The notes under the pieces are model-generated. The model had not been told where the DNA came from, ran no database searches, and was given only the letters and a program-made list of their open reading frames with translations. Shown here piece after piece: positions 5,195 through 34,778 of a stretch of DNA of 41,838 bases. Positions within the stretch are counted from its first letter, which is position 1, and each line of letters opens with the position of its first letter. The position numbers and the translations under genes are program-made. The DNA is from Desulfobaccales bacterium (lineage in GTDB: Bacteria > Desulfobacterota > Desulfobaccia > Desulfobaccales > 0-14-0-80-60-11), in NCBI GenBank assembly GCA_030694005.1, contig JAUXZG010000104.1, positions 1 to 41,838 on the forward strand, read 5' to 3'.

Positions 5195-5725
5195 CGCTAA
5201 CTTATGAGACAGCCTTCATCCCCCCTTTGTAAAAGGGGGGTCAGGGGGGATTTCCTTGCGCATTCGCTCCGCTATCTCCCGGTAGATGACTTCTACCACC
5301 GCCTCGGTTTCTTTTAAAACCTGTCGGCTGTTAAAACGAAGAACCGTCAAGCCAAGTCTGCATAAATAATTGTCCCGCTCTCTGTCCCTTTCAGCATGAT
5401 GGTCTTCAAGATGCTGCGAACCGTCAATCTCAACCACCAATTTTCCCTTTGGCGAATAGAAATCAACAATGTAATCACCAACCGGTTTCTGGCGGTAAAA
5501 TTGCACGCCCGAGATCTGTTTGCCCCGTAGCCGTGACCATAAGACACGCTCACTTTCGGTCAGGTTCTGTCGGAGTTGCCGTGCCCTGGGCTTCAGCCTG
5601 GCGTTATACTTGAGCATGGCTTTATTCTTAAAATCCCCCCTTACCCCCCTTTGTCAAAGGGGGGATTTAACCTTTGCCGCTAATCTATGATAACTTATTA
5701 TAATAGCACACTTTTTAAGTTAGCG
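5195..5725. mobile_element. Putative DUF559 nuclease cassette bounded by inverted C-rich palindromes and a short inverted repeat
   Basis: Left palindrome atcccccctttgtaaaaggggggtcaggggggattt (5218-5253); right inverted copy aaaatccccccttacccccctttgtcaaaggggggattt (~5630-5668); outer 10-bp inverted repeat cgctaactta (5195-5204) / taagttagcg (5716-5725); direct repeat cgctaacttatgaga (5195-5209) vs cgctaatctatgata (5678-5692), 12/15. Confidence 0.55.
5216..5617 (-). CDS. DUF559 (Vsr-like endonuclease fold) protein
   Basis: LRQNLTESERVLWSRLRGKQISGVQFYRQKPVGDYIVDFYSPKGKLVVEIDGSQH; C-terminus EIPPDPPFTKGG is encoded by the flanking palindrome. Confidence 0.9.
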   Translation of the reverse strand: MLKYNARLKPRARQLRQNLTESERVLWSRLRGKQISGVQFYRQKPVGDYIVDFYSPKGKLVVEIDGSQHLEDHHAERDRERDNYLCRLGLTVLRFNSRQVLKETEAVVEVIYREIAERMRKEIPPDPPFTKGG

Positions 5726-6048: not shown

Positions 6049-9000
6049 ATGGACGCGTCTTTGCGGATTCTGGCTTCCACGAACAACGCCCGTGGTGACT
6101 TGTTCACCCGACTGATAAAGGACTTGTTCTTCGCCCTGGGGTACGATGACCTCCGTTTGAACGTCCACAAAACAGGGCGGGAACTGGATATCCAGGGACA
6201 ACACCGGATTGAACCTCGCAGAGTCGTTGCAGAATGTAAAGCACACACCGCCAAAATGGGCGGTGACGAGCTTAACAAATTCCTTGGAGTCCTGACCCGA
6301 GAGCGGAAGAAAAACGCGCCCACTCCTGTCACCGGATACTTCGTGTCACTTAGCGGCTTCACAGAAACCGGCATCCAGCAGGAGGAAGAAACCGGGGATG
6401 ATCGAGTCATTCTCCTGAAAGCAGAACAAGTGATCAGCGAGTTGGAGCGGAGCCGTGTCCTGGTTGGACGCACTGTGGCCGCCGAACGTGCAGGCCAGTG
6501 CGCTCACCATGGTGGACTGACTGACGCCGTGCTGGAAGACGCCGAACTTCTTGGCCATGAACGTGGTTACCTTTGGGCAATTCATTATTCGCGAAATAAG
6601 GAACTAACCCACTTCGCGCTCATCCATGCGGACGGCACGCCCCTAGCGGAACCCGTGGCACGGGAAGTCATTGATGCTGACCGCCAATGCTCCGGTATTC
6701 TCCATTCTCTGCATTACCTCGCCCCGGCACCTCCTCCGCCCGAGCGGGCAAAGTTGGCAGCTGAGGCGATAACCCGCTATCGGCAATGGCTCGGCGAGGA
6801 ATGCGGCTTCATCCAACTCGATGGATTGCCTGCCGATACCGACCTGAGCGCAACCCGGATGAAATTGGAACGGCTTTTTGTGCCCTTGAAAGCGTACTAC
6901 CTGTCTGAACCCAAAGATGAAACGGATAAAGAAGCAGAGGGAGAGAATAAGGTTCTTCCGATTGGTGAAATGCTTTCAGAGAGCACACACCTTGCCCTGC
7001 TTGCCACCCCCGGAGGAGGAAAAAGCACCCTCCTCAAACGCCTTGCCATCGCCTACGCATTTCCCGAACGACGCGTCGAGGTTTCGGATGACTTGCCAGA
7101 CCGGAGTTGGCTCCCGCTCTTCCTGCGTTGCCGCGAGTTGAGGGACCGAGCATATCGCCCCATTCTGGAAATCCTCGACGACCTTCCGCGCCATGCTGGC
7201 ATGAATGAACTGGAGGCGGGCGCCTTCCGCGAGTCTGTGCACGAAATTCTTCGCGCCGGTCGAGCACTCCTTCTAGTTGACGGGTTAGACGAGATATCCG
7301 AGGAAGGCGCGCGGCAAGTGTTCGCGAACAATCTACGCACTTTTCTTGCGGTTTTTCCAAAAGCGGCGATAGTAGTTGCGTCACGCGAGGCAGGCTTCAG
7401 GTTGGTGGCCGGTGTAGTTGCCAGCGCTTGCGTCAGGGCGAAGCTGGCACCTTTTGACAAGCACGACGTTCAGCAACTCTGTGAGCGGTGGCATCTGCAG
7501 GTGGTTGGCGACAATGAGAAAGTGCGGACGGACGCCCGCGACCTTGCGCGTACAATATGGCAAAACGAACGAATCCGTACATTGGCCGAGAACCCACTTC
7601 TGTTGACAACGCTGCTGGTTATAAAACGCTGGATCGGGGAATTGCCGCGCAACCGCGCCGCCCTATATCGGGAAGCAGTCCGGGTGCTTATCCGAACATG
7701 GAATGTGGAAGGGTATGCTCCGCTAGATGAGGAGGAGACACTCGCACAACTCTCCTACGTCGCTTGTGCGATGATGGAGCAAGGCACCCAACGGATCGGC
7801 CAAAAAGCGTTGACAAGACTACTGCAGCAAGCACGTCAGGAATTGGAAGCAGAACTTCACTTCGTTGCGATCTCAGCCACGGGCTTCATCGAACGCATCG
7901 AGTATCGCAGCAGTTTGCTTATGCAGACCGGACACGACATTTTGGAGGGGGAGTTTCAGCCAGTCTACGAGTTCCGACACCTGACATTCCAAGAGTATTT
8001 GGCGGCGCGCGGCTACGTCGAGGAACAATACCCGGGGCGAGCCGAGGGTCAGGCTCTTCTTCATCTACTCGAACCCCATTTTGAGGATGAGCGGTGGCGT
8101 GAAGTGGTAGCGCTTTCGGCAGTGCTCGCGGGGCGCAGAGCGGAGCCGATTATGAAGCGATTGGCCGCGGTATGCGCGAATATTGAATGGCTCCAACGGG
8201 ACCCGAGGGAAAGCGGTAGACCGCAAGTTATCCTACTGAAACAATGCCTCCTCGACGAGGTGCAGGTCACGACCCCGACCCTGCGCGCCGCGTTGGAGCA
8301 GGTAGCGCGCCACGTCCGGGATGTGCCTATTGAGCCTATTAGGAAAAAGGGCACAGGAATGGAGCAAGAAAGCGCCCTCATCAGGCTACGGCGGGGGAAA
8401 TACGGAACACTTCTTCAGCAAGTGACTGAAGACTCCTACCTCAGCGGAAGGAAAAATTGGGAAGAGTATGAACTCGCCATTGCGGATCTCGCGTTTGAGG
8501 AGCAGTTCCAATCTTCCGCCAGGGTACAGATGTCGGCATCTGTGTCGCATTCATTGTTGAAAGCGATTGAAACAGGGGAGAGGATAGAAAAGGTTCGTGC
8601 GGCTTTGGTGGGCATGCGGTTGGCTTTCTCGGCTCGTCACCGAGATCCTAGGTCGGAACCCGCCAGACCTGATGAACTCTTCCAGCCACTACGTGATGCA
8701 ATTTGTGGGATGCTCAATCCTAATGACCCGCCTTTGGCTCTGGCAGCCTCTTGGGCATTGGCTTGGATTGGGGACACCAGACGGTGCACTGCCGCCATAG
8801 ACCTTGCCTCGATGTTGTGTCTATATCAAATATGGAAAGACTCGCCATGGCAAGAACTGTCTCGGTTCGCGGCCTGGGCATTTGCTGCCCAACCGCTTTT
8901 ACCTCGTGACACGTTCAGCAAAGATGTGTGGGGTTCTTGCGATGCGTTTCTAGAAAAAGCCTCAGGACATGAAAAGAGTAGGAAAGGACGTATATCACAA

Positions 9001-9210
9001 AGGGCCGCATTAGTGGTTGCATGGTACCGACAAGCACCTTGGAACGATGGAGATCTCGTTCGGGTAATTGCGGATGTAATAGAACCGGGTGATGCCGATT
9101 ATACCATGCGCGATCTCTTGGAGAACCTTGGCGACGCAGGAAGACAAGTACTGCAGAAATTGAGGGAGAAGAAAGACGAAGCGCACAAGAAACCTCGCAA
9201 GAGGCGATAA
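6049..9210 (+). CDS. NACHT-domain STAND NTPase with N-terminal Mrr-like PD-(D/E)xK nuclease domain; probable anti-phage protein
   Basis: N-terminus LFFALGYDDLRLNVHKTGRELDIQGQHRIEPRRVVAECKAH (D...ExK); Walker A ATPGGGKSTLLKR; Walker B RALLLVDGLDEISEEG; NACHT-type VYEFRHLTFQEYLAARGYVEE; C-terminal helical region. Confidence 0.85.
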   Translation: MDASLRILASTNNARGDLFTRLIKDLFFALGYDDLRLNVHKTGRELDIQGQHRIEPRRVVAECKAHTAKMGGDELNKFLGVLTRERKKNAPTPVTGYFVSLSGFTETGIQQEEETGDDRVILLKAEQVISELERSRVLVGRTVAAERAGQCAHHGGLTDAVLEDAELLGHERGYLWAIHYSRNKELTHFALIHADGTPLAEPVAREVIDADRQCSGILHSLHYLAPAPPPPERAKLAAEAITRYRQWLGEECGFIQLDGLPADTDLSATRMKLERLFVPLKAYYLSEPKDETDKEAEGENKVLPIGEMLSESTHLALLATPGGGKSTLLKRLAIAYAFPERRVEVSDDLPDRSWLPLFLRCRELRDRAYRPILEILDDLPRHAGMNELEAGAFRESVHEILRAGRALLLVDGLDEISEEGARQVFANNLRTFLAVFPKAAIVVASREAGFRLVAGVVASACVRAKLAPFDKHDVQQLCERWHLQVVGDNEKVRTDARDLARTIWQNERIRTLAENPLLLTTLLVIKRWIGELPRNRAALYREAVRVLIRTWNVEGYAPLDEEETLAQLSYVACAMMEQGTQRIGQKALTRLLQQARQELEAELHFVAISATGFIERIEYRSSLLMQTGHDILEGEFQPVYEFRHLTFQEYLAARGYVEEQYPGRAEGQALLHLLEPHFEDERWREVVALSAVLAGRRAEPIMKRLAAVCANIEWLQRDPRESGRPQVILLKQCLLDEVQVTTPTLRAALEQVARHVRDVPIEPIRKKGTGMEQESALIRLRRGKYGTLLQQVTEDSYLSGRKNWEEYELAIADLAFEEQFQSSARVQMSASVSHSLLKAIETGERIEKVRAALVGMRLAFSARHRDPRSEPARPDELFQPLRDAICGMLNPNDPPLALAASWALAWIGDTRRCTAAIDLASMLCLYQIWKDSPWQELSRFAAWAFAAQPLLPRDTFSKDVWGSCDAFLEKASGHEKSRKGRISQRAALVVAWYRQAPWNDGDLVRVIADVIEPGDADYTMRDLLENLGDAGRQVLQKLREKKDEAHKKPRKRR

Positions 9211-34581: not shown

Positions 34582-34778
34582 ACTATTACTTGGTTGCTAA
34601 AGTTAGCGTATTTTTATGGAAGGGGAAAATTCCCCCCTTTTCTAAAGGGGGGTAAGGGGGGGTTTTAAAATCCCCCTAAATCCCCCTTTAAGAAAGGGGG
34701 ACTTTAGGTTTGTCATTGAATTACCAGGTGCTTTTTAAATACGCTGACTTTTGCAACTAATTACTAATACTTGGTTGC
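34582..34778. mobile_element. MITE-like gene-less copy of the C-rich palindrome pair
   Basis: Core 34630-34704 ccccccttttctaaaggggggtaagggggggttttaaaatccccctaaatccccctttaagaaaggggg; TIR gttgctaaagttagcgtattt (34593-34613) vs inverted aaatacgctgacttttgcaac (34737-34757), 19/21; direct repeat actattacttggttgc (34582-34597) / actaatacttggttgc (34763-34778), 15/16. Confidence 0.65.

Follow-up and report, generated by a model that had tools for sequence, protein, structure and literature searches.

DUF559 nuclease genes between inverted C-rich tail-hairpins: a candidate REPtron-like mobile unit

In the 41,838-nt stretch of Desulfobaccales DNA analysed here (contig JAUXZG010000104.1, hereafter the window), a small nuclease gene of the DUF559 family lies between inverted copies of a C-rich palindrome, which raises the question of whether gene and palindromes belong together as one mobile unit. 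C-rich palindromic repeats are a common feature of bacterial genomes; in contrast to the GTAG REPs, we found no enzyme previously linked to them. For comparison, the CGTC class of REPs is described as having, apparently, no transposase dedicated to it (PMC3733652).

The window locus and its nuclease

The DUF559 gene (positions 5216-5617, minus strand) encodes a protein of 133 amino acids with a Vsr/EDxHD-like domain of the PD-(D/E)XK type (5273-5596). In a Pfam profile search the protein scores 122.9 bits against PF04480 (DUF559, E = 6.7e-36; gathering threshold 20.6), and it carries the motif E-I-D-G-S-Q-H. A first, sequence-only reading of the locus had proposed a Vsr-like fold with an E-x-DGxxH motif, and this assignment was borne out by an AlphaFold model of the protein (pLDDT 90.2), which matches the PDB structures 3hrl (TMt 0.91), 3r3p (0.74-0.79) and 1vsr (probability 0.98). 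The invariant residues are E23, D52, E63, D65 and H69. The model also resembles the homing endonuclease I-Bth0305I (Foldseek E = 7e-4, probability 1.0), with a profile match at E = 1.3e-4. The same domain family includes Vsr, YcjD/COG2852, VsrA of Caulobacter and NGO0050, a DUF559 protein whose solved structure is 3hrl; PMC1189080 places YcjD beside Vsr in the PD-(D/E)XK superfamily as a putative Vsr-like nuclease. Palindromes or mobility are mentioned in none of the papers found on these proteins, as far as their accessible text goes, and no link between DUF559 and a palindromic repeat was found in the accessible text of literature naming DUF559, ycjD or COG2852 outside subscription journals. 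Provisionally, therefore, we take the link to be new and the system to be so far unnamed. A phage origin of the unit was considered and rejected, with just three weak phage matches. The unit is adjoined by a gene (6049-9210) for a 1053-residue protein combining NACHT and an Mrr-type nuclease, with weak likeness to the antiphage protein EruA.

The gene is bounded by two tail-hairpin units. The 3' unit, AAATCCCCCC-TGA-CCCCCCTTT-TAC-AAAGGGGGG-AT, occupies positions 5218-5253 of the minus strand (hairpin 5220-5240), and the 5' unit, AAATCCCCCC-TTA-CCCCCCTTT-GTC-AAAGGGGGG-ATTT, positions 5631-5668 of the plus strand (hairpin 5644-5664), with its tail toward the gene. Read toward the hairpin, both have the form AAATCCCCCC-TNA-CCCCCCTTT-nnn-AAAGGGGGG, a C-rich tail followed by a hairpin whose left arm the tail repeats. 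The inverted palindrome copies described earlier were thus recovered as two 36-nt inverted sequences (5218-5253 and 5631-5666) with 92% complementarity. The 30-nt palindrome pattern has three matches in the window without mismatch and none in 100 shuffles. It had also been claimed that the protein ends within a palindrome copy; indeed, the 3' unit encodes the last ten residues (PPDPPFTKGG*), and many other DUF559 proteins likewise run C-terminally into their palindrome.

Outside these units lies a 10-bp inverted repeat with the left arm CGCTAACTTA at 5195-5204 and the perfectly matching right arm TAAGTTAGCG at 5716-5725. Its presence was confirmed, but it does not belong to the common unit. 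The left arm is shared with other palindrome elements (L206, L199 and L006), and five of the eight copies of the repeat in the host genome stand beside such palindromes. The repeat fits a separate local inverted-repeat family with some palindrome doublets nested inside it.

Hairpin ends of DUF559 genes across phyla

The flanks of DUF559 genes were compared with those of other open reading frames by scoring C-rich hairpins at most 130 nt from the gene. One sample comprised the window locus together with 40 further DUF559 loci from its phylum, each covering no more than 20 kb (41 loci in all), the other 80 named loci from other genomes of about 16 phyla, which were chosen by similarity to DUF559 patterns and are not a random set. 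A hairpin filter with a C fraction of at least 0.6 misses the T-type ends (CTTTnnnAAAG); the counts given here use a replacement filter. Within the phylum, hairpins stand on both sides of 34 of 41 DUF559 genes versus 9 of 457 control ORFs (Fisher 2e-37), and on at least one side of all 41 versus 83 of the 457. Across the 16 or so phyla, DUF559 genes are flanked on both sides at 49/80 loci versus 3/749 controls (Fisher 7e-54) and on at least one side at 73/80 versus 89/749. The doubly flanked controls amount to 12 of 1,206 ORFs, and one of the nine from the phylum is itself a DUF559 gene. Of 159 scorable ends, 133 have the tail directed at the gene. Far from being equally common next to unrelated genes, the palindromes are enriched beside DUF559, and inverted tail-hairpin ends enclose the gene in a range of phyla. 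One DUF559 locus of Neisseria gonorrhoeae and one of Deinococcus also bear palindromes.

Two loci of unusual form were seen in passing. A DUF559 unit on a plasmid of Deinococcus proteolyticus (L285, approximately 597-1060) has outward tails, and its outer inverted repeat of 14 bp, GGCCAGCGTTGCTG, is perfect. In Klebsiella pneumoniae a degenerate DUF559 frame between cysP and a Dyp peroxidase gene (L219) is flanked by similar enterobacterial palindromes.

The type of hairpin follows the clade of the nuclease. The T-type end requires 7 changes on the nuclease tree versus 29.5 after shuffling, and end similarity tracks nuclease similarity even when the comparison is confined to pairs from different phyla (Mantel rho 0.42 for the 5' end and 0.26 for the 3' end; 0/1000 permutations). 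Where a genome has more than one DUF559 gene, the end types of these genes mostly differ, and in 39 of 52 comparisons an end was more similar to the one at the nearest nuclease from a different genome than to the one at the companion nuclease of the same genome. This covariation shows that hairpin ends and nuclease are inherited together as a unit; by itself it is no proof of recognition.

These results bear on the reading of DUF559 as a resident Vsr-like repair or restriction nuclease, near which terminators or regulatory hairpins are kept. Such a host function would agree with the often intergenic position of the palindromes and with Caulobacter VsrA, a DUF559 protein which, according to PMC12907096, provokes an SOS response in methylase mutants. 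Terminators, however, are not expected on the 5' side of a gene and pointing their tail at it. Nor would they be expected to vary in step with the nuclease sequence in different phyla, or to be dispersed and polymorphic beside many unrelated genes, and we regard this explanation as highly improbable.

A different possibility is that DUF559 is a passenger, that is, cargo captured between two palindrome copies which are moved by a RAYT/Y1 transposase, or by a DDE transposase that works on outer inverted repeats. Y1 transposases of the RAYT type are found in 100 of 148 genomes of the phylum, including the host, which would supply such a mover. Nevertheless, C-rich hairpins occur at none of 20 RAYT-like Y1_Tnp loci, which have termini of their own, and the palindromes are thereby ruled out as RAYT/REP ends. 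No gene other than DUF559 is packaged in this manner, as the 12 doubly flanked controls indicate, and covariation of the ends with the nuclease is not required of cargo. Outer inverted repeats of at least 10 nt were found at only 10 of the 80 DUF559 loci (0.9 expected), several of them being further palindrome copies; on these grounds, and because of the local repeat family in the host genome, we reject the view that units generally end in the outer 10-bp repeat.

Dispersed palindromes in the host genome and its relatives

The ends that flank the nuclease genes also occur without a gene, as dispersed doublets. The host genome (2.62 Mb in 260 contigs) contains 89 near copies of the 21-nt T-palindrome core versus 2 of the reversed control. 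It has two DUF559 genes and two matching families of dispersed hairpins, with 66-89 and 21 copies, mostly doublets. The second gene (L062) has the different end CACCCCCACCC-(C/T)AA-CCCTCCCCC..GGGGGAGGG, which makes up the family of 21 copies. The T palindromes are mainly doublets, with a gap of 5-43 nt in the 28 two-hairpin elements analysed; the tails of these are clearly inward, as around the gene, in 9, clearly outward in 2 and mixed or unclear in 17. The window itself includes such a non-autonomous doublet of the same palindrome family at 34631-34701, with two hairpins separated by 27 nt.

Across the 148 genomes, T plus S palindromes reach at least 5 copies in 26/39 genomes with DUF559 versus 21/109 without it (p = 1.5e-7, kinship ignored), and T palindromes are present in all ten genomes with a T-clade nuclease. 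The DUF559 gene itself has 1-4 copies per genome; the unit is therefore not an amplifying insertion sequence with a multicopy transposase, and the palindromes are what multiplies.

The same genomes provide the observations that speak for the passenger explanation. Palindrome number also rises with the presence of Y1 transposases, again with kinship ignored. Several genomes are rich in palindromes and have no DUF559 match (G054 with 105, G015 with 52 and G115 with 27; also G065, G109 and G130), for which one has to assume persistence, loss or a different driver. In the host, CTAG stands on both sides of 6 of 30 doublets, and 7 of 30 have an inverted repeat above the 95% null. The window doublet is enclosed by a TIR-like repeat with the arms TATTACTTGGTTGCTAAAGTTAGCGTATTT (34584-34613) and AAATACGCTGACTTTTGCAACTAATTACTA (34737-34766; both coordinates by count). 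Since some host doublets lie inside TIR/CTAG-bounded repeats, a part of the copy number could stem from an ordinary transposase, and for this reason the passenger explanation is kept as the main rival, even if we consider it unlikely. As a side observation, nesting in TIR-like repeats that end in CTAG was noted at six further loci of genome G000 (L006, L011, L015, L198, L203 and L281) besides the window repeat at 34584-34766, and CTAG is strongly enriched in the flanks.

Polymorphic sites and the proposed unit

At orthologous sites, both units and doublets are found in some genomes and missing from others. The clearest case is an intergenic site of genus g19, where DUF559 with its palindromes is found in G052 and G142. 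In G015, whose flanks are 96-97% identical to those of G052, 145 bp of unrelated repeats stand in place of 521 bp, and in G116 the site has 156 bp. The same site in G087 carries a 23S_rRNA_IVP gene enclosed by the same outer repeats. In G142 a remnant of this gene adjoins the DUF559 unit. The concern that all orthologues might be inherited vertically at one locus with no empty site is answered by G015 and G052, the syntenic site without the unit thus lying in a close relative of another carrier. At the window's own site, no DUF559 motif was found upstream of 18 TamB homologues in related genomes. Since sites without a unit usually hold other repeats, target-site duplications are unreadable, and none was recognised, save for an unusual case at L077 (G004:C30), where more than 130 bp, extending from the 3' palindrome into the beginning of the next gene downstream, are present in duplicate, one copy on either side of the DUF559 unit, with a DUF559 remnant adjoining. 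An insertion event could produce this arrangement, but it was given no weight because it possibly reflects a strain mixture in the assembly. The G087 gene, at a locus (L293, G087:C195) orthologous to L076:9700-10230, encodes a 23S rRNA-intervening-sequence protein (PF05635, E = 1.6e-27) inside inverted repeats of AGTCATTGGTCACTGGTCATT, and is possibly another small gene packaged in repeats.

In Escherichia coli, the DUF559 gene ycjD lies between sapF and fabI with a C-rich palindrome doublet behind it, and the ycjD region is found in 3,334 of 5,426 complete genomes. The ycjD-type palindrome occurs in 5,377 E. coli genomes at 66,718 places, with a median of 14 per genome; in a sample of genomes, with phylogroup ignored, the median was 16 copies with ycjD (n = 12) versus 3 without it (n = 7; p = 0.004). 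The doublets are polymorphic: most of the allele that bears the doublet was found in 541 genomes at phnK-phnL, 156 at cpxA-yiiM and 1,598 at yhjE-yhjG, and most of a single-palindrome allele in 276 at argE-ppc. At the identical positions of these four intergenic regions (L224-L243), the other strains examined mostly have REP/BIME elements of the RAYT type, and a site free of both palindrome and REP was seen only at yhjE-yhjG of strain HS13-1. The BoxC elements of E. coli, stem-loop repeats of 50-56 nt in 22-32 copies (PMC2267715), are near the ycjD-type palindromes in copy number and length.

Allele swaps at the same intergenic site, as in E. coli and in genus g19, would also be expected if DUF559 were purely a free-standing homing endonuclease, cutting alleles without palindromes at a few hotspots, the flanks being copied along by homologous recombination between strains and the dispersed palindromes being decayed former sites and recombinational by-products. 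The low copy number of the gene fits this explanation, and the closest solved relatives include I-Bth0305I. The EDxHD homing endonucleases, including the DUF559 domains in inteins, indeed share the catalytic-domain fold and the profile match. The DUF559 proteins described here are stand-alone proteins of about 105-135 residues without extra DNA-binding domains and are packaged in dispersed palindromes; the units were not seen in an intron or intein, and presence or absence of the allele was seen at the g19 site. Decay of homing sites, however, is not expected to leave regular short-gap two-hairpin doublets at dozens of unrelated loci, and apart from the local outer repeats the surroundings of the palindromes showed no common target sequence. 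Homing alone has, in our estimate, a rather small chance of being the explanation.

We consider it probable that the DUF559 gene and its two flanking tail-hairpins form one selfish REPtron-like unit driven by a Vsr-type nickase. The cutting, the copying and the target preference of the nuclease are the parts of this model that we infer. The nuclease would recognise its own hairpin and tail, probably in a folded or single-stranded state at replication, and would nick beside the hairpin; host repair synthesis or recombination could then copy an end or a doublet to a new intergenic place, while the gene itself would move rarely and mostly between genomes.

The selfish-unit model resembles the REP/REPIN repeats with their RAYT (TnpA-REP, REPtron) in having a low-copy enzyme gene between inverted hairpin repeats and many dispersed, strain-polymorphic non-autonomous singlets and doublets (REPIN-like), and REP elements and ycjD-type palindromes occupy the same E. 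coli intergenic sites. The two differ in the enzyme, a HUH tyrosine transposase (Y1_Tnp) in RAYT versus a PD-(D/E)XK Vsr-like nuclease in the DUF559 unit, and in the ends, which in the latter, judged by eye, are of the form CCCC-T(N)A-CCCC hairpin GGGG with a C-rich tail and no GTAG tag. With regard to anatomy and distribution, the proposal of a RAYT/REP analogue with a different enzyme class is well supported, because the enrichment is extreme and specific in comparison with RAYT genes and a syntenic site without the unit exists.

Such a unit would add a second enzyme class to REP-like elements, give a biological context to DUF559, a large family of unknown function, and could reveal how a repeat can spread through the action of a single nickase. 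The chances seem about even that it represents a widespread class of mobile elements whose hairpin ends are dispersed by their lone Vsr-type nickase, with no transposase or recombinase belonging to the element, and that this class explains a large part of the C-rich palindromes in many phyla, the ycjD-linked repeats of E. coli among them. The C-rich palindromes now have a candidate driver, and ycjD makes it open to testing in E. coli K-12. No clean empty site was found at sapF-fabI in E. coli; strains without ycjD have the eefRABCD efflux operon there, the alternative to ycjD at this position (L220-L223; PMC12817139), and reported independent losses of eef coincide with the DUF559 palindrome unit at sapF-fabI.
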